DNA from: Dyella ginsengisoli LA-4
Lineage (GTDB): Bacteria; Pseudomonadota; Gammaproteobacteria; Xanthomonadales; Rhodanobacteraceae
NCBI RefSeq assembly: GCF_000334915.1
Contig: NZ_AMSF01000098.1
Coordinates: 1-61,850 of the forward strand
Direction: 5' to 3'
DNA length: 61,850 bases
In this document: positions 2,770-25,334 of the stretch, piece after piece
Layout: each line of letters starts with the position of its first letter
How positions within the stretch are numbered: position 1 is the first letter of the stretch
Notes under the pieces: generated by a model
What the model was told of the DNA's origin: nothing
The model's database searches: none
The model's input: the letters and a program-made list of their open reading frames with translations, nothing else
Position numbers and translations under genes: made by a program

Positions 2770-3008
2770 GACCGATCACCTCCCGGCAAGGCCTCACGGA
2801 CCCGCTCGACCACCTCGGTCGCTGCGGGCGCGGCCCAGGTGCCCGGGCATTGGGCGGGTGCCTGCTGCCCCTGCAGCGGCGCCAGCGCCGCGCGCAACTG
2901 CGCAGACAGATCGTCCGCGGCCGCCGGCGAGCCGGGCGCGCCGCCGTCGATCACCAGTCGCCGGATGTGCACGTGGATCGCCGACGCGGCGGGCACGGGC
3001 CGGCTCAT
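2766..3008 (-). CDS. small eCIS operon protein with HVxIxR motif
   Basis: 80 residues, begun at the ATG that overlaps the stop of the ATPase gene by 4 nt and ending in a 4-nt overlap with the DUF4157 gene. No family I can name. The N-terminal third contains IHVHIRRLVIDG, which resembles VHVSIDRIEVRA near the C-terminus of the 231-residue protein of the same operon. The rest is Ala/Pro-rich. Tight coupling on both sides argues that it is a real gene of the injection system. Confidence 0.7.
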   Translation of the reverse strand: MSRPVPAASAIHVHIRRLVIDGGAPGSPAAADDLSAQLRAALAPLQGQQAPAQCPGTWAAPAATEVVERVREALPGGDRS

Positions 3009-6974: not shown

Positions 6975-6978
6975 CGCT

Positions 6979-7659: not shown

Positions 7660-8183
7660 TAGGCCGGCTCGGTGAAGGACGGTTCGGCCGGTTCGACCAC
7701 GTCGTAGTCGCGCTCCCAGCCTTCGTTTTCGAGTTTCAGCGTCTGGATCGCCACTGCGTTCGCATTGGCGTCCAGGTCGGGCAGCGCCTGGTACTCGGAC
7801 ACCCAGCAGCGGAAGATCCGGTACGCCAGCACCAGCTGGCCCGCCTCGTTGTAGACCTCCAGCAGCACGTCCTTGCGGAAGTTCGACAGCGAACTCTCCA
7901 GCCCCAGACCGGAGCCGAAGTTCCAGACGCGGTTGGCCCACTTCTCGAACTCGGTGTCGTGGGTGACGCCGCGCTCCAGCGTGACGGCCTCGTACTTGGT
8001 GCGCCCGGGCGACTTGCGCGACGTGCTGGGGTCGCCGCCTTCGCGGTGCTCCACCACTTCGGTGCTGCGCTTGAGCGCCGAGCACTTGCTCACGCCGGCG
8101 ACGTAGCGACCGTCCCACTTGAGCCTGAACTTGAAGTTCTTGTATGGATCGAAGCGCTGCGGGTTGACGGAAAACTGGGCCAT
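7659..8183 (-). CDS. eCIS inner tube protein (T4 gp19-like)
   Basis: 174 residues. Features of contractile tail tube proteins: NPQRFDPYKNFKFRLKWDGRYVAGVSKCSAL at the N-terminus, an EHREGGDPS loop, KYEAVTLERGVTHD and a C-terminal LEYE/LENEGWERD strand. Tube subunits stack as hexamers inside the sheath and carry the payload. It follows the sheath gene by 12 nt and is the second gene of the operon. Only one tube paralogue is visible; many eCIS have two or three, and others may lie left of the window. Confidence 0.92.
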   Translation of the reverse strand: MAQFSVNPQRFDPYKNFKFRLKWDGRYVAGVSKCSALKRSTEVVEHREGGDPSTSRKSPGRTKYEAVTLERGVTHDTEFEKWANRVWNFGSGLGLESSLSNFRKDVLLEVYNEAGQLVLAYRIFRCWVSEYQALPDLDANANAVAIQTLKLENEGWERDYDVVEPAEPSFTEPA

Positions 8184-8195
8184 GTCTCTCGCTCC

Positions 8196-12707: not shown

Positions 12708-13709
12708 TCAGGCGGTGGCCACGGTGGTGAGGGCGTGCACCAGGCAGCGGCGGGCCAGCTCCACCTTGAAGCCGTTCTCGCTCTGCGGGCGGGCGTCGCG
12801 CAGCGCCGCGGTCGCGGCCGCGGCGAAGCTGGCCGGCGTGGCGGGCTGGCCGAGCAGGGACTGCTCGGCTTCGGGCGCGCGCCAGGGGCGCGTGCCGACC
12901 CCGCCAAGCGCGACGCGGGCGTGATGGATGCGCCCGCCGTCCACGCCCAGCACCACCGCGGCCGAGGCCAGCGCGAACTCGTACGAGGCGCGGTCGCGCA
13001 GCTTGAGATAGTGCGAGCGCGTGCCGGCCTTCGGCGGCGGCAGCAGCACGTGGGTGATCAGGTCGCCCGGCTGCATCACCGTCTCGCGGTCGGGCGTGTC
13101 GCCCGGCAGCAGGAAGAAATCCGCGATCGGCACGACGCGCTCGCCGTGCGCGCCGTGGATCGCGATGCGTGCCTCCAGCGCGGCCAGCGCCACGTTCTGG
13201 TCGCTGGGGTTGGTGGCGATGCAGTGTTCGCTGGCGCCCAGGATCGCCAGCGTGCGGTTGGCGCCGCCGATCGCCGGGCAGCCGCTGCCGGGCTGGCGCT
13301 TGTTGCAGGGCATGTGCTCGTCGCGGAAGTACATGCAGCGCGTGCGCTGCAGCAGGTTGCCGCCGGTGGTGGCCATGTTGCGCAGCTGCGCCGAGGCGCC
13401 GGCCAGCAGCGCCTGCGACAGCACCGCGTAGTCGCGCTGCACCTCGGCGTGGTTGGCCACGTCGCTGTTGCGCGCCAGCGCGCCGATCTTCAGGCCACCG
13501 TCGGGCGTGCGCTCGATGCGGTCCAGCGGCAGGTGGTTGATGTCCACCACCTGCTGCGGCGTTTCCACGTGCAGCTTCATCAGGTCGAGCAGGGTGGTGC
13601 CGCCGGCGACGAAGCGTACGCTGGCGCCCTGCTGGGCGGTGGGGGAACGGGCGCCGGCGTCGATCGCCTGGCGGGCGTCGGTGGCGCGGAGGAAGGTGAA
13701 GGCCTGCAT
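12708..13709 (-). CDS. paoB: FAD-binding subunit of aldehyde oxidoreductase (PaoB-like)
   Basis: 333 residues. FAD-binding motif FVAGGTTLLDLMK at 33-45 and TTGGNLLQRT at 115-124. Four cysteines (C125, C135, C144, C163), including the CMYFRDEHMPCNKRQPGSGC region, match the extra 4Fe-4S cluster that sets PaoB apart from other xanthine-oxidase-family flavoproteins. Passes electrons from the 2Fe-2S subunit to FAD. Sits between the other two subunit genes, 10 bp after paoA. Confidence 0.88.
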   Translation of the reverse strand: MQAFTFLRATDARQAIDAGARSPTAQQGASVRFVAGGTTLLDLMKLHVETPQQVVDINHLPLDRIERTPDGGLKIGALARNSDVANHAEVQRDYAVLSQALLAGASAQLRNMATTGGNLLQRTRCMYFRDEHMPCNKRQPGSGCPAIGGANRTLAILGASEHCIATNPSDQNVALAALEARIAIHGAHGERVVPIADFFLLPGDTPDRETVMQPGDLITHVLLPPPKAGTRSHYLKLRDRASYEFALASAAVVLGVDGGRIHHARVALGGVGTRPWRAPEAEQSLLGQPATPASFAAAATAALRDARPQSENGFKVELARRCLVHALTTVATA

Positions 13710-13719
13710 GGTGTCCCCC

Positions 13720-14373
13720 TCAGCCCTTGCGGACCTGCCGGATCGCGGCGTGGATGTTCGGATAGGCGCCGCAGCGGCAGATGTTGCCGGCCATCGCCTC
13801 CTTCATGGCCGCGTCGTCCGGGCCCCAGGGTTCGTCCAGCATCGCCACCGCCGACATGATCTGGCCGGAGGTGCAGTAGCCGCACTGGTAGCCGTCGTGC
13901 TCGAGGAAGGCCTGCTGCATCGGGTGCAGCCGCCCGGGCGCGCCGAGGCCCTCGATGGTGGTGACCTGGTCACCCTCGTGCATCGCCAGCAGGCTGAGGC
14001 AGGCGTTCACCCGGCGGCCGTTGACGTGCACCGTGCAGGCGCCGCACTGGCCGTGGTCGCAGCCCTTCTTGGTGCCGGTGAGCGCGAAGTGCTCGCGCAG
14101 GGCGTCGAGCAGGGTGGTGCGCGGATCGACGGTGAGCGTGCGCGGCTGGCCGTTGACGGTGAGCTTCACCGTGACCGTGCCGTCGCCCTCCTTGCCCGGC
14201 GCGTCCGGCGGCAGGTGCGCCATCGCGGTCGCTGCCAGGGCGTGGCCGCCGAGGCCGAGGGTGGAGGCGGCGCCGGTGACGCCGACCATCTGCAGGAAGC
14301 CGCGGCGGCTGATCGATACGGCGGGAGCGGGAGCATCGCCCGCGGGCGGCTGGGGCGGATTGCGCTGGGACAT
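13720..14373 (-). CDS. paoA: 2Fe-2S subunit of aldehyde oxidoreductase, TAT-exported (PaoA-like)
   Basis: 217 residues. A twin-arginine signal (SRRGFLQMVG at 22-31) precedes the ferredoxin-like domain with Cys at 105, 110, 113 and 125 (GCDHGQCGACT) and the C-terminal 2Fe-2S domain (QCGYCTSGQ, NICRCGAYP). First gene of the operon paoA-paoB-paoC, which fits export of the folded heterotrimer to the periplasm. A perfect FNR box lies 145 bp upstream but is nearer the divergent hsp20 gene. Confidence 0.9.
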   Translation of the reverse strand: MSQRNPPQPPAGDAPAPAVSISRRGFLQMVGVTGAASTLGLGGHALAATAMAHLPPDAPGKEGDGTVTVKLTVNGQPRTLTVDPRTTLLDALREHFALTGTKKGCDHGQCGACTVHVNGRRVNACLSLLAMHEGDQVTTIEGLGAPGRLHPMQQAFLEHDGYQCGYCTSGQIMSAVAMLDEPWGPDDAAMKEAMAGNICRCGAYPNIHAAIRQVRKG

Positions 14374-14517
14374 GCGGTCTTACCTCCGGAAAGCGGCAGA
14401 CGCCGGCAGGATGGCAGCGGCGCCAGGCGACAACGGGCGACGAAGCAACCCGTGAACGGTACACCCGGCGCGGCTCTCCGGCAGCACGAATTTGCGTCGC
14501 GTGTCCGACACGCAAGC

Positions 14518-14531
14518 TTGATCGGCATCAA
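14518..14531. promoter_or_regulatory. FNR/ANR box, perfect (hsp20 upstream)
   Basis: TTGAT-CGGC-ATCAA, matching all ten consensus positions. Its centre is 90 bp before the Hsp20 ATG. The intergenic gap has no gene. Confidence 0.75.
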
Positions 14532-14614
14532 GCCCGGGGCATCGCGGCGGACGCAGAGTGTCCTGTGGCGCGGTCGCGCCACCGTTCTGCTGCGCTTACC
14601 CGGAGGTACACACC

Positions 14615-15076
14615 ATGAGCACCCTCACACACTGGAACCCCTTCAAGAGCTCGCCGCGCATCGATCCGCTGGCCGGTTTCCCGCTTGGCGGCATCGACGA
14701 CGTGTTCCGCTCGATGGCCAATCGCCCGTTCTGGCGCGACGTGGACATGGTCCCCGACATGCGCCTGGACGTGATCGAAAAGGACGACGCCTACGTGGTC
14801 AAGGCCGACATCCCGGGCGTCGACAAGAATGACATCGAGATCTCGGTGGATGGTGGCCAGGTCACCATCAGCGCGGAGTCCCGGCACAGCAGCGAGAAAA
14901 AGGAAAACGAACACACCCTCGTCAACGAGCGCTACGTCGGGCGGGTCTATCGCTCCTTCGGCCTGCCGGCCGAGGTGGACAGCGACAAGGCGGATGCGCG
15001 TTACCAGGGAGGCGTTCTCACGCTCACCCTGCCGAAGAAGAGCAACAGCAGCAGCCACCGCGTCATGGTGAGCTGA
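14615..15076 (+). CDS. Hsp20/alpha-crystallin small heat-shock protein
   Basis: 153 residues. The alpha-crystallin domain is clear: DMRLDVIEKDDAYVVKADIPGVDKNDIEIS, ERYVGRVYRSFGLP, and GGVLTLTLPKK at the end. ATP-independent holdase in the cytoplasm. The ATG was chosen for its GGAGGT ribosome site at 14602-14607; the longer frame adds unlike residues. Preceded by a perfect FNR-type box, so low-oxygen induction is likely. Confidence 0.93.
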   Translation: MSTLTHWNPFKSSPRIDPLAGFPLGGIDDVFRSMANRPFWRDVDMVPDMRLDVIEKDDAYVVKADIPGVDKNDIEISVDGGQVTISAESRHSSEKKENEHTLVNERYVGRVYRSFGLPAEVDSDKADARYQGGVLTLTLPKKSNSSSHRVMVS

Positions 15077-15085
15077 GGCTCGGGA

Positions 15086-15114
15086 CGGACGCATCGCCTT
15101 CTGCGATGCGTCCG
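15086..15114. terminator. bidirectional hairpin between convergent genes
   Basis: A 12-bp perfect stem (15086-15097 with 15103-15114) and a 5-nt loop CTTCT lies between the hsp20 stop and the host-attachment gene stop. No long T run on either side. Confidence 0.6.
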
Positions 15115-15127
15115 CCGTCGACGCTGG

Positions 15128-15571
15128 TCAGACGCTCAGTTCCCGCAGTACGCGTTCGCGGACATCGAGCTCCTCCAGCGCGGTGAAGTCGTTGTGCAAC
15201 TCGCCGCTGACGCGCTCGCGCAGCGCCTTGTCCAGCACGCCGTGCAGGGTGCCGAGGAAGCGCGGCGGGGCAACCAGCACCAGTTGTTCGCAGCGGCGTT
15301 CCGTGCAGCCGCGTTCCAGTTCGTCGCGCAGCATGCGCGCGAAGCGCTCGCTGCTCTTGTCGCGCAGGCTGGTGTGCGGTTCGATCGCATGCCGCGCCGA
15401 GCCGACGCTCTCCATGGTGCGTGGCGCACGCTCGGTGGTGGCATCGCGGCCCGGAGCCCTTCCATCCGGATTGGCAAGGCACGACACCACCGTCCACGGG
15501 CCGCCACGCCGGTCGGACTCGAACACCCTCGCGCGGGCGGCATCCGCCACCAGAATCCAGGTCGATGCCAT
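15128..15571 (-). CDS. host attachment family protein
   Basis: 147 residues. Matches the Host_attach family: start TWILVADAARARVFE, middle RDKSSERFARMLRDELERG, and LVLVAPPRFLGTLHGVLDKALRERV at 90-120. The fold resembles eRF1 domain 2; despite the name, the cellular role is not settled. The ATG at the start of MASTW follows a GGAGG ribosome site. An FNR-like box lies about 76 bp upstream with a TAGCAT -10 candidate. Confidence 0.85.
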   Translation of the reverse strand: MASTWILVADAARARVFESDRRGGPWTVVSCLANPDGRAPGRDATTERAPRTMESVGSARHAIEPHTSLRDKSSERFARMLRDELERGCTERRCEQLVLVAPPRFLGTLHGVLDKALRERVSGELHNDFTALEELDVRERVLRELSV

Positions 15572-15612
15572 GTTGCCTCCCGCCCTTCGGGCCAATGAGA
15601 TGGGGTGTCCCG

Positions 15613-15654
15613 ATGCTAGGTGCGGGGTCGGCCGCGCCACTTGACCTGCATCAA
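15613..15654 (-). promoter_or_regulatory. FNR-like box and -10 for the host-attachment gene
   Basis: On the minus strand TTGAT-GCAG-GTCAA at 15654-15641 (9 of 10), then TAGCAT at 15618-15613, which begins 29.5 bp from the box centre. That is the spacing of an FNR class II promoter, where the box sits at -41.5. Confidence 0.65.
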
Positions 15655-15675
15655 TGGCCAGGCGCGCGCCGGCCT

Positions 15676-16032
15676 TCATCGTGCATCGGGTCGCTCGTGG
15701 TGCTTCACCTCGCCGCGGCGCACGCGCAGGAAGTCCTGCAGTTGGCGCCGCAGCGCGGCAAAGGTGTCGCGCACCGCCACGTGGACGTCGGCATGGGTGT
15801 CGTTGCCGGTCTCGCGTCTGGCCTCGAACTGGGCGCCGGGCAGGCTCACCTGGGCCTGCACGCGATAGTGGTGTCCGCTGCGGTGGCGCGCCTCGGCGTG
15901 GCGCACCGTGATCCGGCAGTCGGTCAGCGTGGGAGCGAAGTGTTCCAGTTGCAGCGCGTGGCGCGATATGTCTTCGTACAGCGCCTTGGACGGCCGCATG
16001 TCGAGGAAGCTCACTTCGATCAGGAAACTCAT
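15676..16032 (-). CDS. HPF/RaiA-like ribosome-associated protein
   Basis: 118 residues. Short member of the sigma-54 modulation/S30EA family: an N-terminal strand MSFLIEVSFLDM, the HYRVQAQVSLPG strand and the HADVHVAVRDTFAALRRQLQDFLR helix. Such proteins bind the ribosome and hibernate it during stress. ATG picked as the residue where family similarity begins; the ribosome site is weak. A near-perfect FNR-type box lies about 67 bp upstream. Identity is moderately sure since the N-terminal strand is divergent. Confidence 0.7.
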   Translation of the reverse strand: MSFLIEVSFLDMRPSKALYEDISRHALQLEHFAPTLTDCRITVRHAEARHRSGHHYRVQAQVSLPGAQFEARRETGNDTHADVHVAVRDTFAALRRQLQDFLRVRRGEVKHHERPDAR

Positions 16033-16065
16033 GACGGGGACTCCACGTCGTCGGGTCGCCCCACC

Positions 16066-16106
16066 ATGCTGGGGCCGCGCGCGGCGCGCGGTTTGATCCA
16101 GATCAG
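16066..16106 (-). promoter_or_regulatory. FNR-like box and -10 for the HPF-like gene
   Basis: The plus-strand sequence TTGAT-CCAG-ATCAG at 16093-16106 matches 9 of 10 positions. On the minus strand CAGCAT at 16071-16066 begins 28.5 bp from the box centre, as expected for class II FNR activation. Confidence 0.6.
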
Positions 16107-16214
16107 CCTCTTGCCACGAGCGGCGGGTGGCGATGCCGGTGGCCCGGGTTCCCCCGCGCGGGCCTTTGATGCCGGTCGACGCCGGGCCATCCGGGCCACG
16201 TCGGTGACGCCGCG

Positions 16215-17021
16215 CTAGTGCCGGAGATAGAGCGGCAGATGGCTGCGCGACAGCACCACCCGTGTGGTGGCACCGAAACTGCAGCCGCCAGGACGCCGGC
16301 ATCCGCTGGCGCCGAGCACCAGCAGGTCGGCCCGTTCGTCGGCGGCGATGGCCAGCAGTTGTTCGCCGGTATCCTCATCGGCTTCGGTCACGGTCTGGAG
16401 GCGGGTGACGTTCACGCCGTGCGCCCGCAGGTGCGCGGCCGGGTCGAACAGCGGGGGGGCGGACCGCCGCTCCGGCGGCGGCTGCAGCAGGGCGACCGTG
16501 GTCGCGGCGACCAGCAACGGCAGGGCGCCATGCAGGGCGCGATTCGACGCGGGGCTGCCGTCCCAGGCCACCACGGCGCGAGCCACGCGACCGGGCGAGA
16601 AGCCGGCAGAGGGAACCAGGATGCAGGCCACACCGGACAGCAGGGTCTCCAGCACCGGGCGCTCTTCGATGGAACAGGGCGGCACGTTGCCCTGCAGGAT
16701 CACCACGTCGCTCCATTGGCCCGCCAGCACCAGCGCATCCGCCGCCGGCCCCTGAGCGACCTGCCAGCGCGCTTCGCGCACGCCGAGCGTCGCCGCCCAG
16801 GTGGCGAAGGCCGGTCCGGCGAGCATCGCCTGCTGGAGTTCGTCCTGAGCGTAGGCAAGCACCTCCTGCATCAGTTGCGGCGGGCCGGACAGGGACGGGC
16901 TCGGCGCGGCGACGTACAGGCCGGTCAGCCCGGCGTGGGTGTCCGCGGCGAGTTGGGCGGCGTAACGCACGGCGGCTGGCCAATGCCGGAAGTCCGGGCT
17001 GTGGACGACGATGTCGCGCAC
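16215..17021 (-). CDS. universal stress protein, tandem UspA domains
   Basis: 268 residues in two Usp-like halves. The second half ends with LLVLGASGCRRPGGCSFGATTRVVLSRSHLPLYL, the Usp nucleotide-binding signature (GxS-x9-G[ST]) followed by the last strand. The first half is divergent. Divergently transcribed from a second tandem Usp gene with two FNR-like sites between them. Typical of low-oxygen survival genes in proteobacteria. Confidence 0.85.
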   Translation of the reverse strand: MRDIVVHSPDFRHWPAAVRYAAQLAADTHAGLTGLYVAAPSPSLSGPPQLMQEVLAYAQDELQQAMLAGPAFATWAATLGVREARWQVAQGPAADALVLAGQWSDVVILQGNVPPCSIEERPVLETLLSGVACILVPSAGFSPGRVARAVVAWDGSPASNRALHGALPLLVAATTVALLQPPPERRSAPPLFDPAAHLRAHGVNVTRLQTVTEADEDTGEQLLAIAADERADLLVLGASGCRRPGGCSFGATTRVVLSRSHLPLYLRH

Positions 17022-17095
17022 CTGATGCCCCTCGCAAAGCCGGCTGCGCAGAGCGCCGGATGACCGCCAGCATGCATCTGCCGCTGCCGCCGGGC

Positions 17096-17109
17096 TTGAT
17101 CCAGATCAT
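17096..17109. promoter_or_regulatory. FNR-like box facing the leftward usp gene
   Basis: TTGAT-CCAG-ATCAT, 9 of 10 consensus positions, centred 81 bp before the leftward usp start. Same core and spacer as the box ahead of the HPF-like gene. Confidence 0.6.
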
Positions 17110-17142
17110 GCCCCGGGATGGGGAGGCCAACCGATCGCAACC

Positions 17143-17156
17143 TTGATCTGGGTCAC
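17143..17156. promoter_or_regulatory. degenerate FNR-like box facing the rightward usp gene
   Basis: TTGAT-CTGG-GTCAC: left half perfect, right half 3 of 5. Centred 84 bp before the rightward usp start. No clear -10 at class II spacing, so this is the weakest site of the set. Confidence 0.4.
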
Positions 17157-17233
17157 CAAGACCACTGCCGACATGCTCCAGCGTGCTCCCCTGGTGCCAT
17201 CGACGAACGGCACGGGCAAATGGAGGGCTCGCG

Positions 17234-18061
17234 ATGTACGACATCCTCGTCAACACCATCAACTTCGAGACGTGGTCCCGCGACGCGCAGTACGGCACCC
17301 GGCTGGCCGCCCTGGTGAACGGCTCGGTCACCGGGCTGTACGCCTATCCGCCGCCGCTCTACGCCGCGCCCGAGTTCGGCACGCCCGAGGTGATCGAGAC
17401 CGTGGTCGGGATGTCGCGGATACTGGAAGCGAGCGCGCTCGGCGCCGGAGCCGCATTCGTCGACTGGGCGAAAAGCCTCGGCGTGGAGCAGGCTACCTGG
17501 GTGGTGGCGCAGGGCGATCTGCGCGACGTGCTCTCGCGGATCGCCTGCTGGCATGACCTGCTCGTCGTGGAGCGGGACGAGGACCGGACCTGGTCCACCC
17601 CCGAAGACCTGGCCGGCCTGATCCTCTCGGTCGGGGTGCCGTGCATCGTGGTGCCACCGCGGCCGGTCGGCGAGGTATCGCTGGCCCGCATCGCGATTGC
17701 CTGGAACGGCGCCCCCGAGGCGATCCGCGCGGTGCACTCGGCGCTGCCGCTGCTGAAGCGGGCGGAAGACGTGCTGCTGTTGCGCGGCGCTCCCAGGGAG
17801 CCCCTTCGCGACATCGCCTGGAAGCCGCCCTTCGACATCGATGCCTATCTCAACCGACACGGGGTCCAGCCACGCTCGCTGGAGCTGAAGACCACCGGCC
17901 GGGAGGTCGGCGAGGCGCTGCTGGAGCATGCGGGCCGGTTCGATGCGGACCTGCTGGTGATGGGCGCGTTCGGGCGAAGCCGTTTCAGCGAGCGGGTGCT
18001 CGGCGGCGCTACCCGGCACGTGCTGTGGAAGGCGTCGTTGCCCGTGCTGTTCCATCACTGA
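17234..18061 (+). CDS. universal stress protein, tandem UspA domains
   Basis: 275 residues. Opening YDILVNTINFETWSRDAQYGTRLAALVNGSVTGLY is the first Usp strand and helix; the C-terminal LLVMGAFGRSRFSERVLGGATRHVL carries the Usp ATP-binding signature. ATG set by a TGGAGGG ribosome site just upstream. The stop is 9 bp before the alcohol dehydrogenase start, so the two form an operon. Confidence 0.9.
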   Translation: MYDILVNTINFETWSRDAQYGTRLAALVNGSVTGLYAYPPPLYAAPEFGTPEVIETVVGMSRILEASALGAGAAFVDWAKSLGVEQATWVVAQGDLRDVLSRIACWHDLLVVERDEDRTWSTPEDLAGLILSVGVPCIVVPPRPVGEVSLARIAIAWNGAPEAIRAVHSALPLLKRAEDVLLLRGAPREPLRDIAWKPPFDIDAYLNRHGVQPRSLELKTTGREVGEALLEHAGRFDADLLVMGAFGRSRFSERVLGGATRHVLWKASLPVLFHH

Positions 18062-18070
18062 GGACACGCC

Positions 18071-19051
18071 ATGCGCGCCATGACGCTTGAAGCGGCGGGA
18101 CGGCCGCTGGTGCTTCGCCATCACGAGGATCCCGTGCCGGGTCCCGGCGAGGTACGCATCCACGTGGAGGCCTGCGGCGTTTGCCGCACCGACCTGCACC
18201 TGATCGACGGCGAGTTGCCGGGGCTGGCCCCGCCGGTGGTGCCGGGGCACGAGGTGGTCGGGTGGGTCGAGTGCGTGGGAGCGGGCGTCGAGGCGCTGGT
18301 TCCGGGCCAGCGCGTGGGCGTGCCCTGGCTGGGGGCGACCTGCGGCACATGCGACTACTGCCGCGGTGGGCGCGAGAATCTCTGCGACGCGCCGGAGTTC
18401 ACCGGCTATACCCGGCCCGGGGGCTTCGCCAGTCACCTGGTCGCCCGTGCCGACTTCTGCATCCCACTGGGCGAGGTCGACCCGGTCGCCTGCGCGCCGC
18501 TGCTGTGTGCGGGCCTGATCGGCTGGCGCGCGCTGGACCGGACCAACGAGGCCGGCACGATCGGCATCTACGGTTTTGGCGCGGCGGCGCACCTGATGAC
18601 CCAGATCGCGCGCCACCAGGGGCGTCGCGTGCTGGCGTTCACCCGGCCGGGAGACCAAGCGGCACAGGATTTCGCCCGTGCGCACGGCGTTGCCTGGGCC
18701 GGAGATTCCAACGCGGCGACGCCCGAGCTGCTCGACGCGGCGATCATCTTCGCGCCCAGCGGCGAGCTTGTGCCCCAGGCCCTGCGCGCGGTGCGCAAGG
18801 GCGGACGCGTGGTCTGCGGCGGGATCCACATGTCCGACATTCCGTCGATGCCCTATCAGTGGCTGTGGGGAGAGCGGGAACTGGTGTCAGTGGCCAACCT
18901 GGCCCGGTCGGACGCGCGGGCGTTCTTCGACCAGGCAAGACGCGCCTGCGTGCGCGCCACCACCCGGCGCTATCGACTGGAGCGGGCGAACGAGGCGCTG
19001 GACGACCTGCGCCACGGCCGCTTCCAGGGCTCTGCCGTGCTGGTGCCATGA
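18071..19051 (+). CDS. zinc-dependent alcohol dehydrogenase (AdhA-type)
   Basis: 326 residues of the MDR superfamily. Catalytic zinc site CGVCRTDLHLIDGE and GHEVVG at 36-62; structural zinc cysteines CGTCDYCRGGRENLC near 93-107; a Rossmann segment IGIYGFGAAAHLM near 165. It resembles the AdhA group used in fermentative ethanol/aldehyde metabolism. Second gene after a universal stress protein, consistent with anaerobic redox balancing. Confidence 0.9.
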   Translation: MRAMTLEAAGRPLVLRHHEDPVPGPGEVRIHVEACGVCRTDLHLIDGELPGLAPPVVPGHEVVGWVECVGAGVEALVPGQRVGVPWLGATCGTCDYCRGGRENLCDAPEFTGYTRPGGFASHLVARADFCIPLGEVDPVACAPLLCAGLIGWRALDRTNEAGTIGIYGFGAAAHLMTQIARHQGRRVLAFTRPGDQAAQDFARAHGVAWAGDSNAATPELLDAAIIFAPSGELVPQALRAVRKGGRVVCGGIHMSDIPSMPYQWLWGERELVSVANLARSDARAFFDQARRACVRATTRRYRLERANEALDDLRHGRFQGSAVLVP

Positions 19052-19076
19052 ACCGGTCCCGGGGCGTCGCCGGCAG

Positions 19077-21119
19077 CTAGTGCACCTTGCCTTCGAGCGC
19101 CTTGGCCACGGCCTCGGCGAGCTGGCCCTGCCGGTACGGCTTGCGCAGGAGCTGGATGCCGTCGCGCTGCGCCGCCGCGGCACCCGCGGAAGCCTGCTCG
19201 TACCCGGACGTCAGCAATACGGCCAGGCCCGGTCGCATCATCCGTGCCTCGCGCACCAGCTCGAATCCGGTGTGTCCGTCGCCGAGGGCCACGTCCGAGA
19301 ACATCAGCCGGATCGCCGGGTCGTCATGCAGCCGCGCCAGCGCCTGCGAGGCGCTGATGGCTTCGACCGGTTCATAGCCGAGCGCACGGAGCAGCCCCAT
19401 GGCCACCCGGCGCACGTCCGGCTCGTCCTCCACCACCAGCACCTTCGGTGGATCCCGGCGCACTCCGGCGTCAGGGGCCGTGTCTGGCTCGTCCTCTTCC
19501 TGCGGCGGCATCGGTGACGTCGGCAGCAGCAGTTCGACCCGGGTTCCCTGGCCGGGCATGCTCTCGATCCTCACCCTGCCACCCGATTGCCTGACGAAGC
19601 CGTAGACCATGCTCAGGCCGAGGCCGGTGCCCTTGCCGGCGGTCTTGGTGGTGAAGAAGGGATCCATCGCGCGCTTGAGCACGTCCCGCGACATGCCGGT
19701 GCCGGTATCCGCCACGGTAAACGCGACATAGCTGCCCGGCGGCAGCCCGTCCGGCCCCTCGGGGGGAGTCGGGCGGGCTCGCGCGGTGATCCTCAGCGCG
19801 CCTCCGTCCGGCATCGCATCGCGGGCGTTGAGCGCAAGGTTCACCAGCGCGGTCTCCAGCTCGCTGGCGTCGGCGAGCACCGCCGGTACGTCGGCCGCGC
19901 AGTCCATGCTCAGCCGGACGCGCTCGCCCAGGGTGTGGACGAGCATCTCGCCCAGTTCGGCGAGCACGCGTTGCGGGCGCAGCGCACGCGGGGACAGCGC
20001 CCGCTGGCGCGAGAACCCCAGCAGCTTGCGGGTAAGCGCGGCGCCGTGATCGACCGCGCGCAACGCACTTTCGATCAACGGATGCGCGCCCGGGTCGCCG
20101 GCCCGCTCCGCATCCAGCATCTGCAGATTCCCCGAGATGATGGTGAGCATGTTGTTGAAGTCGTGCGCGATGCCGCCGCTGAGCTGGCCAAGGGCATCGA
20201 GCTGATGGGCGTGGGCCAGTTGCTGGTCGCTCCGGCTGCGCTGGATGGCCGACGCCAGCAGGTGCGCGGACAAGCGCAGGAAGTTCGACTTGTCGTTGTC
20301 GCAGTCATCGGATGCGAGGGACATGGCGAGCAGGGCACCGGTGGGCTTGAACCGGTCGAGCAGCGGAACGATCGCCATGTCGGCGAAACCATGGGCATCC
20401 AGGGTCGAGCGCAACGCCGGCAGGTCGTGCGCCGGGCTGCGCGAGAGCGTCCAGATGCCGCTCGACCGGAAGTCGGCGAGACGCTCGGCCAACCGGTCGC
20501 TGGCGAAGGCCTCGGGCAGTGCATCCGCCAGTCGCGGAGGCACCCCGTGGGAGGCACGTATCGGCAAGGCCTCGCCGTCCGGCAGGCCGACGGCGACCGC
20601 CACTGCCTCCACGCCCAGTGCTTCGGCGATCAGTGCGGGCACGGCGGTACGCGCCGACTCGTCCTGGCTCGATTCCAGCAGCAGCCGGCCCAGCTGGGCC
20701 AGGTAGCTGTCGTAGCGGGCGTGCTGCAGGGCCTGTCGCACCCGCTGGGTTTCGGAGATGTCGCGGATCGAGGCGGCGAACAGCTCGCGGCCGATCGGGC
20801 TCAGCGCGACCTCCACCGGAAAGGTTTCCCCGTTGCGGCGCAACCCGGTCAGCTCGTAGCCCGCGCCCATCGGGCGGACACGGGGATGGCTCATGTAGCG
20901 CTCGCGATGCCGGGCATGCGCGGCGCGCACGCCCTCCGGCAGCAGCGCCTCGATGGCCAGGCCGGGCAGGCCGTCGGGCACATAGCCGAACAGGCGGTGG
21001 GCCTGCGGGTTGGCCAGCACGATGTCGCCGCTGCGGTCGACCACCACCATGGCGTCCGGCACCGTGTCGAAAAGCGTCCGCAACAGGTATTCGTTTCCGG
21101 CGATGCTGACGCTGGCCAT
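19077..21119 (-). CDS. hybrid sensor histidine kinase (PAS-GAF-HisKA-HATPase-REC)
   Basis: 680 residues with no membrane segment: PAS (about 8-125), GAF-like (about 140-305), HisKA with GQLSGGIAHDFNNMLT holding the phospho-acceptor His near 330, HATPase with NLALNARDAMP, DTGTGMS and GKGTGLGLSMVYGF, and a C-terminal receiver (about 560-675) with the acceptor Asp in FSDVALGDG. A cytosolic sensor. The second ATG of the frame was chosen for its GGGAG site and because it follows the regulator gene by 4 bp. It is convergent with adh, 25 bp apart. Confidence 0.88.
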   Translation of the reverse strand: MASVSIAGNEYLLRTLFDTVPDAMVVVDRSGDIVLANPQAHRLFGYVPDGLPGLAIEALLPEGVRAAHARHRERYMSHPRVRPMGAGYELTGLRRNGETFPVEVALSPIGRELFAASIRDISETQRVRQALQHARYDSYLAQLGRLLLESSQDESARTAVPALIAEALGVEAVAVAVGLPDGEALPIRASHGVPPRLADALPEAFASDRLAERLADFRSSGIWTLSRSPAHDLPALRSTLDAHGFADMAIVPLLDRFKPTGALLAMSLASDDCDNDKSNFLRLSAHLLASAIQRSRSDQQLAHAHQLDALGQLSGGIAHDFNNMLTIISGNLQMLDAERAGDPGAHPLIESALRAVDHGAALTRKLLGFSRQRALSPRALRPQRVLAELGEMLVHTLGERVRLSMDCAADVPAVLADASELETALVNLALNARDAMPDGGALRITARARPTPPEGPDGLPPGSYVAFTVADTGTGMSRDVLKRAMDPFFTTKTAGKGTGLGLSMVYGFVRQSGGRVRIESMPGQGTRVELLLPTSPMPPQEEDEPDTAPDAGVRRDPPKVLVVEDEPDVRRVAMGLLRALGYEPVEAISASQALARLHDDPAIRLMFSDVALGDGHTGFELVREARMMRPGLAVLLTSGYEQASAGAAAAQRDGIQLLRKPYRQGQLAEAVAKALEGKVH

Positions 21120-21123
21120 GGCG

Positions 21124-21909
21124 TTACTCCCGTTGCACGGTGTCGCTGAACATGTAACCGGCGCCACGCACCGACTTGATCAGCGTGGGCACGGCCGGGT
21201 CGGGCTCGATCTTGCGCCGCAGGCGGCCGACCTGCACATCCACCGCACGGTCGAAGGGACCGGAGTCCCGGCCGTAGAGCTGGTTCATCAGCTCGTCCCG
21301 GGACAGCACCCGGTTCGGATGGGTGACGAACACCTGCAGCAGCTCGTATTCGCCGTTGGTGAGTGCGACCGGCTGGCCGGCATCGGTCGTCAGCGTCCGG
21401 CTGTGGGATTCCAGGCGGTAGCCGGCGAAGCGATAGGTGGGCGGGTGCGCTTCGTTCTCCCGCCGGCGCTCGCCGACGCGGCGCAGCACGCTGCGGATGC
21501 GCGCCAGCAGCTCGCGCAGCTCGAACGGTTTGGTGACGTAATCGTCGGCGCCGAGTTCGAGCCCGACGATGCGGTCGACCGAATCCCCGCGCCCGGTGAC
21601 GATGATCACCGGTCCGTGCCAGTGCTCATGCAGATGCCGGGTGAGGTCGAGACCGTCCTCGCCGGGCAGGCCGAGGTCGAGCAGGATCAGGTCCACCACG
21701 CTCTCGGCGAGCAAGGCGAGCATCTCCCGGCCGGAGCCGACGACACTCACCGCGAAGCCCTGGGCGGCGAGATAACGCTTGAGCAGCAGAGCGATCTCGC
21801 TGTCGTCATCGACCACCAGCACATGCGTCTGCTGGCCGGGCGTCCCGCACTTGTCGGCTTCCGTCGACGTCACGATGGCCTCCGTATGCTGCCTTGCGGC
21901 CAGATTCAC
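21124..21909 (-). CDS. OmpR-family response regulator
   Basis: 261 residues. Receiver with VVDDD, acceptor Asp in LILLDLGLPGEDG, conserved Thr in IIVTGRGDS and Lys in DDYVTKPFE. C-terminal winged helix ends SRDELMNQLYGRDSGPFDRAVDVQVGRLRRKIEPD and VRGAGYMF. Transcribed ahead of the hybrid kinase, so the pair is a two-component system. A GTG at 21873 is an alternative start. Three tandem 10-bp repeats upstream could be its own binding site. Confidence 0.9.
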   Translation of the reverse strand: MNLAARQHTEAIVTSTEADKCGTPGQQTHVLVVDDDSEIALLLKRYLAAQGFAVSVVGSGREMLALLAESVVDLILLDLGLPGEDGLDLTRHLHEHWHGPVIIVTGRGDSVDRIVGLELGADDYVTKPFELRELLARIRSVLRRVGERRRENEAHPPTYRFAGYRLESHSRTLTTDAGQPVALTNGEYELLQVFVTHPNRVLSRDELMNQLYGRDSGPFDRAVDVQVGRLRRKIEPDPAVPTLIKSVRGAGYMFSDTVQRE

Positions 21910-22006
21910 CCCCGAGCGGCGAGGCTTGCGCCCGGGTATCCCGGTTGCGGCAGGTTACTCGCATGACCGCTCCGGTGCGCTGCAAAGCCAGGGCGGCACC
22001 TGCCCG

Positions 22007-22036
22007 GCTGTTACACGCTGTTACACAAGGTTACCT
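22007..22036. repeat. three tandem 10-bp repeats (GCTGTTACAC type), candidate regulator site
   Basis: GCTGTTACAC, GCTGTTACAC and AAGGTTACCT in direct succession, each sharing the GTTAC core at exact 10-bp spacing. They lie between the divergent response regulator and FNR-like regulator genes. OmpR-type winged helices bind direct repeats about 10-11 bp apart, so autoregulation is plausible. Confidence 0.55.
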
Positions 22037-22102
22037 CTTTGTAGCCGTCGCACGTGCCGAGCAGTGCAGGATCAAGGCTACCGCCCTGACTGGAGCCATC
22101 CG

Positions 22103-22861
22103 ATGTCCGCGACGATCGCCTCCTTGTCCACTGCACGCAAGCTGGCCGACGACACCCTGCATCGCAGCGCCTTCGGGCGGGAGCTTCTCAAAGTGGCCGC
22201 CCGCTTCACATTGCACGTGCACCGGCTGCAGAAGGGCGGCTATCTCGCCTGTGCCGGCGCGCCCTTCCGTTCGTTGTTCCTGCTCACCAGCGGTTCGGCC
22301 AAGGCGACCTGCCCGGGCGCCGACGGGCGCGAGCAGATCACCCGCTTCTACATGGCCGAAGACCTGCTGGGGCTGGATGCGCTCGATGCCGGGGTTCACC
22401 CCACCTCGATCCGCATGCTCGAGTACAGCGTGGCGCTGGAAATCCCGCTGCCGCAGCTGGAGCAGGCCGGCATCGATATCCGCGGCATCTATGGTGCGCT
22501 GATCCGCAAGCTGTCGCACGAGGTGGAGTACGAACAGCAGACCCTGTTGCTGCTGGGCTCGGCAAAAGCGGAGGAGCGCCTGGCGACGTTCCTGCTGGAG
22601 CTCGGTCGGCGCCATGCCGAGCGCGGCTGCTCGGCCAGCGAGTATGTGCTGCGCATGACCCGCGAGGACATCGCGAGCTACCTGGGGCTGAAGCTGGAGA
22701 CGGTCAGCCGCGGGCTGAGCCGCCTCAACCGGATCGGAGCGGTCGATGTGCAGGGGCGCAGCATCCGCATCCGCGACCCGCGACAGCTCGAGCAGTCGGC
22801 GGTCTGGGGCAGGGAGGCGACGCGCTCCGTCCGAAACGACCTGCCGCAGGCGGCGGCCTGA
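22103..22861 (+). CDS. Crp/Fnr-family regulator with FNR-type recognition helix, no Fe-S cysteines
   Basis: 252 residues. Cyclic-nucleotide-binding-like beta roll, long dimer helix, and HTH MTREDIASYLGLKLETVSRGLSRL. The recognition helix has E199, S202 and R203, the ExxSR pattern that in FNR reads TTGAT half-sites. The N-terminal Cys cluster of FNR/ANR is absent: the only cysteines are C50, C70 and C176, so it cannot hold the usual 4Fe-4S cluster, recalling DNR-type sensors. Likely the local activator or partner for the FNR boxes around it. Confidence 0.88.
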   Translation: MSATIASLSTARKLADDTLHRSAFGRELLKVAARFTLHVHRLQKGGYLACAGAPFRSLFLLTSGSAKATCPGADGREQITRFYMAEDLLGLDALDAGVHPTSIRMLEYSVALEIPLPQLEQAGIDIRGIYGALIRKLSHEVEYEQQTLLLLGSAKAEERLATFLLELGRRHAERGCSASEYVLRMTREDIASYLGLKLETVSRGLSRLNRIGAVDVQGRSIRIRDPRQLEQSAVWGREATRSVRNDLPQAAA

Positions 22862-22954
22862 GCCTCGGGCTGCCCCGCGGGCCGGGGCCTTTGCGGGCTG
22901 TTGCCCCGACCTTGCAGCACCACAACCCCGCTTGATGAAAACCGGAGACCAGCC

Positions 22955-23251
22955 ATGGCACATGTGCACGCCGAATACCTGAAGGGCGACCTGAACGCGA
23001 TCGCCAGCGATGTCGAGCAGCTGATGAAGGACGTGGCGGCCGCGACCGGGGAGAGTGCCGAGGACGTCCACACCCGCCTGCGCGGGATCCGCGAGCGGGT
23101 TTCCCGACTCGAACGCGATGCCGGCGACCGTGTGCGCCGGACCGTCGACCGCGGCAACCGGTACGTGCACGAGCAGCCCTGGATCGTTCTCGGCGGCGTG
23201 GCGGCTGCGGCCTTCCTGATCGGCCTGCTCGGCAGCCGCGCGCGCGACTGA
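22955..23251 (+). CDS. DUF883 (ElaB/YqjD-like) membrane-anchored protein
   Basis: 98 residues: an N-terminal amphipathic coiled-coil (LKGDLNAIASDVEQLMKDV, RLRGIRERVSRLE), then HEQPWIVLGGVAAAAFLIGLLGSR, the characteristic DUF883 C-terminal membrane helix. E. coli relatives tether ribosomes to the membrane in stationary phase. The ATG follows a GGAGA site. It lies 93 bp downstream of the FNR-like regulator. Confidence 0.88.
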   Translation: MAHVHAEYLKGDLNAIASDVEQLMKDVAAATGESAEDVHTRLRGIRERVSRLERDAGDRVRRTVDRGNRYVHEQPWIVLGGVAAAAFLIGLLGSRARD

Positions 23252-23266
23252 GCCCGTCCGCGCGAC

Positions 23267-23896
23267 TCAACGCAAAGCCGCCACGACATCCTCGTCCTCG
23301 ACCTGGTCGAAGCGCAGGTAGAACGCCCCCACACCGTCGAAGTGCTGCGGGACGTGCAGGCAGACCACGTCGTCGGCGAAGCTGCGGACCCGCGCAAGCG
23401 CATCGGCGGAAGCTACCGGCACCGCGCAGACCAGCCTCGCCGGTGCCTGCCGCCGCACGGCAGCGAGCGCGGCGACCATGGTTTCCCCGGTGGCCAGGCC
23501 GTCGTCAACGACGATCACCACGCGCCCGGCCGGATCGATGGGAGCGCGTTCCCGGCTGTACCGGCGGCGCTGTTCCCTGATGCGTTGCAGCTGTCGTCCG
23601 CGCTCGCACTCGAGATAGTTGCCGTCGGCACCGGCGAGCGAGGCGTATTCGGCCACGTGCATGGTCCCCGACTCGTCGACCGCGCCGATGGCGAGCTCCG
23701 GATTGCCCGGTGCACCGAGCTTGCGCACCAGCACCACGTCCAGATCCGCGTGCAGGGCGTCGGCAATGACGCGGCCCATCGGCGCGGCGCCGCGCGGTAT
23801 CGCGAGCACCAGCGCATCGGCATCGCGGTAGACGGCGAGCCGCTCGGCCAGCCGTCGGGCGGCCTCGATCCGGTCGAAGAATGGCAGGCCCCGCAT
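23267..23896 (-). CDS. phosphoribosyltransferase-domain protein
   Basis: 209 residues. The PRPP-binding loop VVIVVDDGLATGETMVAAL (about 125-143) is the type I phosphoribosyltransferase signature; PRGAAPMGRVIADAL and VRKLGAPGNPELAIGAVDE are typical of the standalone family common in anaerobic stress loci. Substrate unknown. The start was placed at MRGLPFFDR, 4 bp after the flavodoxin stop; the longer frame overlaps flavodoxin. Third gene of the operon CBS-flavodoxin-this gene. Confidence 0.82.
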   Translation of the reverse strand: MRGLPFFDRIEAARRLAERLAVYRDADALVLAIPRGAAPMGRVIADALHADLDVVLVRKLGAPGNPELAIGAVDESGTMHVAEYASLAGADGNYLECERGRQLQRIREQRRRYSRERAPIDPAGRVVIVVDDGLATGETMVAALAAVRRQAPARLVCAVPVASADALARVRSFADDVVCLHVPQHFDGVGAFYLRFDQVEDEDVVAALR

Positions 23897-23900
23897 GCCT

Positions 23901-24398
23901 TCAGTGGCCCGGAGCGGGCAGGTCTGCCCCGAGCTTGGCGACGAACCGCTGCAGGGTATCCCGGTGCCGTACCGGCGGAAGGTGTTGCGCATCCACCACC
24001 AGGGTGGCTTCCGGGATCTTGCCGCAGAGCCTGCCGAGATCGTCGAATGCCTGCTCGGCGCCGCGTCCGCCTTCGGTGCAGAAGAAAGCAACCCGTGGGG
24101 CGCGGTCGGCCAGCTGCCTGGCATAGCTGCGCAGCGGCGAGGCCATGCGACCGGCCCACACCGGGCCGCCCATCGCGAGCAGGTCATAGACGGCCGGATC
24201 GTGGCGCGGCGTTCCGATCGGCGGTTCGCGGCGAAGGACCGCATCGAACAGGGCGCGCAGCACACCGCGCAGGCCGCGGCGCGGATGCGGCTCGCGGATT
24301 TCCTCCACGTCGGCCTGCAGCGCCGAGCGCAGTTCCTCGGCGATGTCGCGGGTGTGACCGGTCATCGAGTAGTAGGCGAGCAGGATGCGTGGCTTCAT
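23901..24398 (-). CDS. flavodoxin-like protein
   Basis: 165 residues. FMN phosphate loop YYSMTGHTRDIAEEL at 9-24, central AMGGPVWAGRMASPLRSYA and FFCTEGGRG match flavodoxin-family proteins. It may carry electrons under low iron or low oxygen. Lies 9 bp after the CBS gene stop and 4 bp before the phosphoribosyltransferase. Confidence 0.85.
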   Translation of the reverse strand: MKPRILLAYYSMTGHTRDIAEELRSALQADVEEIREPHPRRGLRGVLRALFDAVLRREPPIGTPRHDPAVYDLLAMGGPVWAGRMASPLRSYARQLADRAPRVAFFCTEGGRGAEQAFDDLGRLCGKIPEATLVVDAQHLPPVRHRDTLQRFVAKLGADLPAPGH

Positions 24399-24407
24399 GG
24401 CGGCGGC

Positions 24408-24857
24408 TCAGACCCGGACTTCCATCTCGCGCACCTGCTCGCGGGCCAGCGCCTGGCTGAGCATGCGCAGATGCGTGGACAGCGCGCCGTAGAGATCGTC
24501 GGCCGAGACCATGCCGACCAGCCCGCCCTTGTCGTTGACGACCGGCAGCCGTCGCACGCTGCGCGCGAGCATGGTGGTGATGATGTCGAACAGGTCCTCG
24601 CTCTCGGTGCAGGTGGCGACGTTGCGGTTCATCACATCCTCGACCATGAGGTTTTCGGGCTGGATGCCCGCCGCCACGACCGCGATGGCGATGTCGCGGT
24701 CGGTGATGATGCCGGCCGGCACGCGTTCGCCATTCGGCTGGTCGGTGATCACCAGGGCGCCGACGTGGTGGCTGCGCATGCTCTGCGCCGCCTCGCGGAT
24801 GGATGCCTTCCGTTCGATGTAGACGACGTGGCGGGTGCAGATTTCAGCGGCATGCAT
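24408..24857 (-). CDS. tandem CBS-domain protein
   Basis: 149 residues made of two CBS motifs: about 1-62 (IREAAQSMRSHHVGALVITD, GIITDRDIAI) and about 72-130 (VEDVMNRNVATCTESEDLFDIITTMLARSVRRLPVVNDKGGLVGMVSADDLY). These bind adenosyl ligands and act as energy sensors. First gene of a three-gene operon preceded by an FNR-like box about 69 bp upstream. Confidence 0.92.
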   Translation of the reverse strand: MHAAEICTRHVVYIERKASIREAAQSMRSHHVGALVITDQPNGERVPAGIITDRDIAIAVVAAGIQPENLMVEDVMNRNVATCTESEDLFDIITTMLARSVRRLPVVNDKGGLVGMVSADDLYGALSTHLRMLSQALAREQVREMEVRV

Positions 24858-24919
24858 GGCACGACCCCATGGTGAGGAGTGACTCGCGATACAGCCTGCG
24901 CGCCGGCGCGGTCGTCACC

Positions 24920-24933
24920 TTGACGGCAATCAA
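24920..24933. promoter_or_regulatory. FNR-like box for the CBS-flavodoxin operon
   Basis: TTGAC-GGCA-ATCAA, 9 of 10 positions, centred 69 bp before the CBS gene start. A possible -10 (CTGTAT, minus strand, 24894-24889) is about 3 bp further than ideal for class II spacing. Confidence 0.6.
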
Positions 24934-25021
24934 GGAATGGCGCCGCAAGGCATGCGGCAGCGGCCGGGTGCCTGCGCCATGCGGGCAGCCGAGGGGCGCC
25001 GCCTCGTGCCGGCCGGCATGT

Positions 25022-25062
25022 TTGATCGTGATCAAGGTCCCTCTGCGCCCGTCACCTACGGT
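25022..25062 (+). promoter_or_regulatory. perfect FNR box and -10 for the dodecin gene
   Basis: TTGAT-CGTG-ATCAA at 25022-25035, ten of ten, followed by TACGGT at 25057-25062, whose start is 28.5 bp from the box centre. This fits an FNR class II promoter with about 25 nt of leader before the dodecin ATG. Confidence 0.75.
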
Positions 25063-25094
25063 GGGCCGACATCCCTGTGCCGGAGGAGCCACCC

Positions 25095-25334
25095 ATGGCC
25101 ACGAAGAAGTCCAGGTCCGCAAGGACGCAGCTCGCCAAGGTGATCGAAGTCAACGCCGCTTCCGACAAGGGCATCGAGGAGGCCGTACGCTTCGGCCTGG
25201 GCCGCGTGGCCAAGACCATCGGGGACATCCGCGGTGCATGGATCAGCGACATCAAGGTCTGCACCACGCCCGACGGCAAGATCACCGAATGGCGCGTGGA
25301 CATGCGCGTGAGCTTCATCGTCGACCAGGGCTGA
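25095..25334 (+). CDS. dodecin family flavin-binding protein
   Basis: 79 residues, slightly longer than the usual 65-70 because of a basic N-terminal tail (MATKKSRSARTQ). Core: KVIEVNAASDKGIEEAVRFGLGRVAKTIGDIRGAWISDIKV...GKITEWRVDMRVSF, typical of dodecins, which form dodecamers that store or buffer flavins. ATG after a CGGAGGAG site. Preceded by a perfect FNR box. Confidence 0.92.
   Translation: MATKKSRSARTQLAKVIEVNAASDKGIEEAVRFGLGRVAKTIGDIRGAWISDIKVCTTPDGKITEWRVDMRVSFIVDQG

Follow-up and report, generated by a model that had tools for sequence, protein, structure and literature searches.

We analysed a stretch of 61,850 nucleotides from Dyella ginsengisoli LA-4 (contig NZ_AMSF01000098.1, here called the window) and, within it, a block of 10,961 bases at positions 14374–25334. 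The block encodes a small heat-shock protein (Hsp20), a host-attachment protein, an HPF-like ribosome protein, two universal stress proteins (usp), an alcohol dehydrogenase, a phosphoribosyltransferase, a flavodoxin, a CBS-domain protein and a dodecin. Among these genes are those of a hybrid histidine kinase, a response regulator and a regulator of the FNR family, and a direct repeat of the motif GTTAC lies upstream of the last. Sites of the pattern TTGAT-N4-ATCAA (FNR boxes) lie in the gaps between the genes. The question treated here is which proteins read these boxes and how the FNR-like regulator itself would be controlled; the coordinates are collected in Table 1.

The first-pass annotation of this DNA had listed seven such sites in the block, and their coordinates and match counts are all correct. 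Allowing two mismatches, the whole window holds 21 matches against 5.5 expected (100 shuffles, largest count 11). With at most one mismatch, the pattern is found at 78 places in the genome (4.55 Mb), four of them perfect, against 13 places for the reversed pattern. The block comprises 0.24% of the genome's bases and holds six of the 78 boxes, where 0.17 are expected from the remaining genome (Poisson tail 3e-8); the concentration of boxes in the block is thus upheld on the scale of the genome. The statement that no such site occurs elsewhere in the window was wrong, as there is a perfect site at 50647. We rejected this site (50647–50660) as a target and take it as probably a chance occurrence, because it lies inside a CusB-like efflux gene (49875–51377, minus strand). 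Concerning the −10 elements at class II spacing that had been claimed for three of the sites, the claim holds in part: 21–22 bases after the box, the strict hexamer TAnnnT is found on two of the six gene-facing sides and the looser nAnnnT on four of the six, and nAnnnT is not found on these sides at any of 26 other offsets.

The more stringent pattern TTGAY-N4-RTCAA occurs 19 times in the genome: four times in the block, once at 50647 and 14 times on other contigs. Based on a crude gene call, 11 of the 14 outside sites have no covering predicted gene and three are covered; their neighbours, named by eye, include usp and P-type-ATPase-like genes, one cytochrome-like gene, the gap between grpE and dnaK, and the gene downstream of an Fe-S FNR. 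The genome encodes two canonical FNRs (contigs C15 and C94), both with cysteines in the arrangement C-x2-C-x5-C and with an FNR-type recognition helix. Since the boxes extend to other contigs and two Fe-S FNRs are present, the boxes are not private to the local regulator. The block is a dense spot in a genome-wide box regulon, and the idea that the boxes form the regulator's own private regulon is given up, also in view of the boxed usp loci of relatives without a match to the regulator. Contig C15 contains, at about 148000–183000, a second stress cluster with one Fe-S FNR (175086–175841), boxed usp-like and P-type-ATPase-like genes and several PAS proteins.

The local regulator has the recognition-helix residues E199, S202 and R203 and lacks Fe-S cysteines, both as annotated: its three cysteines (50, 70 and 176) are outside any Fe-S motif. 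In the PDB its best match is 8qto (FNR-type, E 5e-34), followed by FixK2 (1e-18), with DNR at 6.4e-6. Three cysteines within 16 residues of the N-terminal region are absent in all 28 regulator-type proteins checked. The regulator lacks the Fe-S cysteines and therefore does not sense oxygen directly by the Fe-S route; it looks like an FNR that lost its Fe-S cluster. The alignment of the 28 proteins has no column with Cys or His in at least 80% of the rows, and their sole fully conserved Met belongs to the DNA-binding domain. Heme in the regulator was considered and rejected, as there is no conserved ligand.

Orthologs with at least 59% identity are found in seven of the 233 family genomes, and a second cysteine-free clade, with about 34–42% identity to the window regulator, is found in many more. 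The match list at E 1e-30 (109 of the 233 genomes) mixes in canonical FNRs, so that 109 is not a count of the regulator. In a sample of 398 genomes of the order, a query from the second clade at E 1e-45 found matches in 57, 42 of them in the same family and 15 in two others. In the tree the two cysteine-free clades are supported at 100/100 and 99/99; their sister grouping is without support, and a single origin of both was not retained. A cysteine-free FNR homolog from a Xanthomonadales metagenome bin has been set aside for want of cysteines (PMC8510549).

Upstream of the regulator gene lies GTTACACGCTGTTACACAAGGTTAC, a perfect triple 10-base GTTAC repeat and the only place in the genome which matches this pattern with up to two mismatches; the reversed control also has one match at this threshold. 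Positions 22010–22025 are an exact match to the published K-box, GTTACA-N4-GTTACA. For the two Fe-S FNR genes of the genome, the best upstream match to the repeat has four mismatches. The exact tandem GTTAC-N5-GTTAC is present upstream of the regulator in all 41 loci that we fetched, and a third half-site with at least four of five bases matching is present in 35. Seven of these loci belong to the window clade and 34 to the second; they were taken from match lists regardless of the repeat, and one second-clade locus has the regulator in two pieces. Among 30 short loci that partly coincide with these, the tandem is exact in 28, the remaining two having one and two mismatches. Random 270-base pieces contain it in seven of 2000 cases, the pieces being drawn from loci of which many themselves bear such sites.

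The response-regulator/kinase pair is found in 37 of the 41 fetched stretches; it is missing in G032, G121, G479 and, at a contig end, in G068. The pair is divergent from the regulator in the window's genus and lies on the opposite side in G138, G139 and G142, where the repeat is still with the regulator. As the pair can be on either side and the repeat is constant, the repeat travels with the regulator promoter. In the regulator tree the window protein groups with G138, G139 and G142 (100/100). The window kinase has 46–62% identity to the kinases beside second-clade regulators, and the response regulator 56–75% to its counterparts there (a distant kinase in G034 has 38%); the values against G138, G139 and G142 are 36–38% and 47–54%. 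Because the regulator and the kinase pair point to different closest relatives, one part of the module was probably exchanged during its history. Two further observations concern the module in relatives. In G032 (locus L093, 10770–11400) the match to the regulator is split in two, the repeat in front of it is intact, and the fetched stretch contains no kinase pair; this module is possibly decaying. Several relatives have an FNR box near the GTTAC repeat upstream of the regulator (L047 at 4075, L048 at 8776, L198 at 9515 and L085 at 8807), which suggests feedback on the regulator gene in them; near the window's own repeat we found no box within two mismatches.

The annotation of the pair as containing a hybrid PAS-GAF kinase is right for the PAS, HisKA, HATPase and receiver domains, which pass the Pfam cut-offs, and not for GAF, which is below its cut-off (20.8 bits vs 27). 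The response regulator contains the Response_reg and Trans_reg_C domains. The best structure matches of the PAS domain are 10jx, a multi-sensor kinase (2e-19), FixL (3e-17) and DosP (1e-7); no literature on 10jx was found among the matches listed. The heme-binding histidine of FixL is His200 in BjFixL (PMC10765370). All 19 module kinases (18 and that of G228) have His at this position, vs one of 29 other PAS_9 domains of the genome (30 of the 33 found were looked at, three having a gap). Heme in the kinase PAS domain is a possibility suggested by sequence. By analogy with the rhizobial hFixL–FxkR–FixK relay, it seems more likely that sensing sits in the neighbouring kinase and that the regulator is controlled by its amount.

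These parts resemble the hFixL–FxkR–FixK relay of Rhizobium leguminosarum and R. etli, in which FxkR induces fixK by binding the K-box, hFixL is a hybrid kinase, and FixK and the Fe-S protein FnrN read the same TTGAT-N4-ATCAA anaerobox (PMC7888657, PMC4999443). The two systems have in common a hybrid PAS kinase with a C-terminal receiver, an OmpR-type regulator, a K-box before a Crp/Fnr gene whose product has no N-terminal Fe-S cysteines, and TTGAT-N4-ATCAA targets together with an Fe-S protein of FNR type (FnrN in the rhizobia). The window response regulator has 46.9% identity to FxkR9 of pRL9 (E 4e-68), which also has OmpR-type domains according to Pfam. Compared with hFixL9, the kinase is 41% identical in its catalytic and receiver half (E 1e-81) and 29% in the PAS part. 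The identity of the FNR-like protein to each of FixK9a and FixK9b is 31%. In pRL9 the GTTAC repeat is found at two places, beside both fixK genes. The Dyella system differs in its kinase, which has a PAS–HisKA stretch with a weak GAF match and lacks the FixL distal Arg, in the targets next to the module, which are stress and persistence genes whereas those of the rhizobia are fixNOQP or nif, and in its host group, Lysobacterales and not Rhizobiaceae.

Other oxygen-responsive systems share fewer of these traits. FixLJ–FixK2 of Bradyrhizobium and FixLJ–fixK of Burkholderia dolosa also consist of an oxygen-sensing kinase pair which induces a Crp/Fnr regulator, but the Dyella response regulator is of OmpR type and not a FixJ, and its predicted site is the K-box and not one for FixJ. 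The redox cysteine C183 of FixK2 has no conserved counterpart in the Dyella-type regulators; among the FixK2-dependent genes tabulated with such boxes are those of an Hsp20, a host attachment protein and a universal stress protein (PMC9104804). In B. dolosa FixLJ induces fixK, a homolog of BCAM0049, at low oxygen (PMC5234846), which makes the previously noted likeness of the block to the low-oxygen locus of B. cenocepacia apt. The Burkholderia low-oxygen-activated locus, compared by gene names only, also has a low-oxygen-induced usp cluster and a candidate Crp/Fnr regulator (PMC9104464, PMC6127331). Canonical FNR/ANR proteins share the ExxSR recognition helix, the box and the promoter spacing, and differ from the local regulator in their Fe-S cysteines. 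In the plasmid collection, several of the best-scoring kinase records are also best for the response regulator (searched among the best 5000 records), with the matches side by side, in Variovorax and Sinorhizobium. A Crp/Fnr gene adjoins the pair in both of the loci that were opened; the GTTAC tandem is present at that of Sinorhizobium medicae, and no exact one is present at that of Variovorax. The latter locus (L215, Variovorax paradoxus plasmid, 5199–8826) has a response regulator, a hybrid PAS-GAF kinase and a convergent Crp/Fnr gene, an order also seen beside the second clade, and the GAF match of its kinase is well above the Pfam cut-off.

Built on the boxes, the repeat, the module, homology and conservation, all of which are read from sequence, our interpretation is that the genes of the block form a regulon for stress survival that has a two-step relay of the hFixL–FxkR–FixK kind to itself; we give it a probability of about 0.77. 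The hybrid PAS kinase (19077–21119) would sense falling oxygen, or a redox signal related to it, and phosphorylate the response regulator (21124–21909). The latter would bind the GTTACA-N4-GTTACA repeat observed at 22010–22034 and switch on the FNR-like gene at 22103. The FNR-like protein, acting mainly by its abundance, would then bind the boxes at class II positions, a step for which the support is comparative, and activate the hsp20, host-attachment/baeRF, HPF-like, usp, CBS–flavodoxin–PRT and dodecin genes. The same boxes could also be read by the Fe-S FNRs of contigs C15 and C94; the response would then have two stages, one for mild and a later one for severe oxygen loss. The interpretation thereby moves from new regulator chemistry to a known relay design in a host group that is new for it.

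The alternative that survives best is that the two canonical Fe-S FNRs are the sole readers of the boxes and the local cysteine-free protein controls something else. The presence of these two proteins with FNR recognition helices favours it, as does the position of 14 of the 19 stringent boxes on other contigs; the same ExxSR helix in the local protein speaks against it. Genomes that have the regulator and in which no Fe-S FNR was found bear on this directly. Canonical matches at E 1e-50 are found in 77 (C15 type) and 163 (C94 type) of the 233 family genomes, and 12 genomes with the regulator and without either type were picked, non-exhaustively. When these were searched permissively, the cysteine-free regulator turned up (in two copies in G228) and, in most, a Crp-like protein. 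G103, G108 and G122 (loci L181, L179 and L180) also encode a divergent member of the FNR family that has the cysteine spacing C-x3-C-x5-C and no Glu in its recognition helix, and on account of this cysteine-bearing protein the three were dropped from the strict set. The remaining nine genomes, rated 99–100% complete, contain the cysteine-free regulator and the repeat, with the kinase pair seen in seven, and neither the canonical search at E 1e-50 nor the permissive search found an Fe-S FNR in them.

Around the regulator these nine genomes hold 38 boxes in 171 kb (4.4 per 20 kb), vs three for the outward-facing and one for the reversed control. For all 12 genomes the total is 53 boxes, of which 25 are intergenic though only 11% of the bases are. 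The density is 4.9 per 20 kb in 15 loci with both the regulator and a canonical FNR match, and 2.1 per 20 kb in seven usp loci from genomes without a regulator match. In the 15 loci, TAnnnT peaks 21 bases after the box, the class II position. At 21–22 bases, nAnnnT is found on 13 of 36 gene-facing sides in the nine genomes (26 other offsets: mean 2.4, maximum 6) and on 43 of 74 sides in the 15 loci; the strict TAnnnT is found on 2 of 36 and 17 of 74, respectively, and on 5 of 13 in the usp loci without the regulator. Because boxes at class II spacing surround it in genomes in which no Fe-S FNR was found, the cysteine-free regulator probably reads the boxes, and the sites are probably shared by the two kinds of protein. 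The comparative data thus make the local FNR-like regulator a likely reader of an FNR-box regulon, as the first-pass annotation had proposed, and reading by the Fe-S FNRs alone appears unlikely.

A number of observations weigh against the relay reading. The usp loci without a regulator match have nAnnnT at 21–22 bases on 9 of 13 sides; since they keep boxes at the same spacing, an Fe-S FNR alone may suffice where it is present, including in this genome. The class II signal in the nine genomes is above background but weaker than where an Fe-S FNR is present, and G208, one of the nine, has only one box. Genome-wide box counts in one genus are 28–33 with the regulator vs 13–26 in nine relatives without any of the three FNR types (at the thresholds chosen). 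In G228 the pattern and its control give six sites each, and over the 12 regulator genomes, the nine relatives, which share the genus of three of them, and the Dyella genome the counts overlap when genome size is allowed for; they therefore do not discriminate the box reader. The 41 loci with the repeat are mutually related and not independent. The Dyella protein in the place of FixK is nearer to FNR than to FixK2 in the structure search. Concerning the kinase, the position of the distal Arg of FixL (R220 in BjFixL) is occupied by Tyr, the propionate Arg is variable, and apart from the proximal His the residues of the FixL heme pocket are not conserved.

A second alternative concerns the other end of the relay: a different OmpR-type regulator would bind the repeat at 22010, and the local pair would act elsewhere. 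The motif resembles an OmpR site, GTTACAnnnnGTTACA (PMC7315122), and G032, G121 and G479 keep the repeat without the pair in the fetched stretch. The pair nonetheless accompanies the gene at the great majority of the loci, the triple repeat is found once in this genome, unlike a global OmpR site, and the local response regulator is FxkR-like, so we regard this alternative as decidedly improbable. DNR, a cysteine-free relative of FNR, senses through heme. That the regulator likewise senses a ligand itself (heme, nitric oxide or another small molecule), as the first-pass annotation had suggested, and that the kinase pair is an unrelated neighbour would fit the missing Fe-S cysteines, but the distant match to DNR, the lack of a conserved Cys or His column and the constancy of pair (37 of 41) and tandem (41 of 41) leave it very little probability.

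The relay reading can be extended to the group as a whole. In Lysobacterales, an hFixL–FxkR-like pair and a K-box would drive cysteine-free FNRs whose FNR origin is independent of FixK, and in several species these would have replaced the Fe-S FNR as box reader; we hold this tentatively, at somewhat less than even odds. Kinase, response regulator and K-box so alike in gammaproteobacteria mean a much wider range for this relay design, with the module tied to stress persistence and not to nitrogen fixation. If the relay did replace the Fe-S FNR, oxygen sensing moved from the transcription factor to a kinase. With a predicted operator, a predicted sensor and genomes in which no Fe-S FNR was found, the question of the box reader is directly testable. 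Among the matches listed in the openly licensed literature (titles and starts of abstracts) there is no description of this module in this group.

Table 1. Genes and sites of the block, in window coordinates.
Feature	Position	Strand	Basis
FNR box TTGATCGGCATCAA, upstream of hsp20	14518..14531	+	Pattern scan; box at the same place in three genus relatives
Hsp20 small heat-shock protein	14615..15076	+	Pfam PF00011, 2.4e-21
Host_attach/baeRF-family protein	15128..15571	-	Pfam PF10116, 1.8e-37
FNR box, 1 mismatch; TAGCAT, -10-like hexamer, 21-22 bases downstream	15641..15654	-	Kept in 4/4 genus genomes
HPF/S30AE-like ribosome protein	15676..16032	-	Pfam PF02482, 1.4e-5
FNR box, 1 mismatch	16093..16106	-	Pattern scan
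Decayed box, 2 mismatches; intact TTGATGCCGGTCAA in G064 and G065	16166..16179	-	Pattern scan, relatives
Universal stress protein 1	16215..17021	-	Pfam PF00582
FNR box, 1 mismatch, between divergent usp genes	17096..17109	.	Pattern scan
Degenerate FNR box, 2 mismatches, upstream of usp2	17143..17156	+	Pattern scan
Universal stress protein 2	17234..18061	+	Pfam PF00582
Zinc-type alcohol dehydrogenase	18071..19051	+	Pfam PF08240
Hybrid histidine kinase, PAS-(weak GAF)-HisKA-HATPase-receiver, hFixL-like	19077..21119	-	Pfam, identity to hFixL9
OmpR-type response regulator, FxkR-like, start codon uncertain	21124..21909	-	Pfam; 46.9% identity to FxkR9 (pRL9)
Triple direct repeat GTTAC-N5-GTTAC-N5-GTTAC, including perfect K-box GTTACA-N4-GTTACA	22010..22034	+	Genome pattern scan
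Cysteine-free FNR-family regulator (putative FixK role)	22103..22861	+	Pfam, PDB search, cysteine check
DUF883 protein	22955..23251	+	Pfam
Phosphoribosyltransferase (PRT)	23267..23914	-	Pfam PF00156, 9.5e-16
Flavodoxin	23901..24398	-	Pfam PF12682, 3e-7
CBS-domain protein	24408..24857	-	Pfam PF00571, 1.1e-27
FNR box, 1 mismatch, upstream of CBS gene	24920..24933	-	Pattern scan
FNR box TTGATCGTGATCAA, TACGGT 21 bases downstream	25022..25035	+	Pattern scan
Dodecin	25095..25334	+	Pfam PF07311, 6.3e-16; 100% identical in G066

The gene order of the block is shared with Dyella lutea (L005, G064), a Lysobacterales bin (L006, G065) and a third member of the genus (G066). Most of these three relatives keep the positions of the boxes in front of the hsp20, host-attachment, HPF, usp, CBS and dodecin genes, and the box preceding the host-attachment gene is kept together with its TAGCAT in all four genus genomes. 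The boxed intervals corresponding to window positions 16106–16215 and 24933–25022 are longer in L005 and L006 than in the window and G066. In L006 the interval between the HPF and usp genes (2052–3923) contains an FtsH gene, and that between the CBS and dodecin genes (12867–17710) contains genes of a PolX-like polymerase and a ribose-phosphate pyrophosphokinase; these genes are absent from the window and G066. The box in front of ftsH in L006 survives in the window as a decayed copy at 16166.

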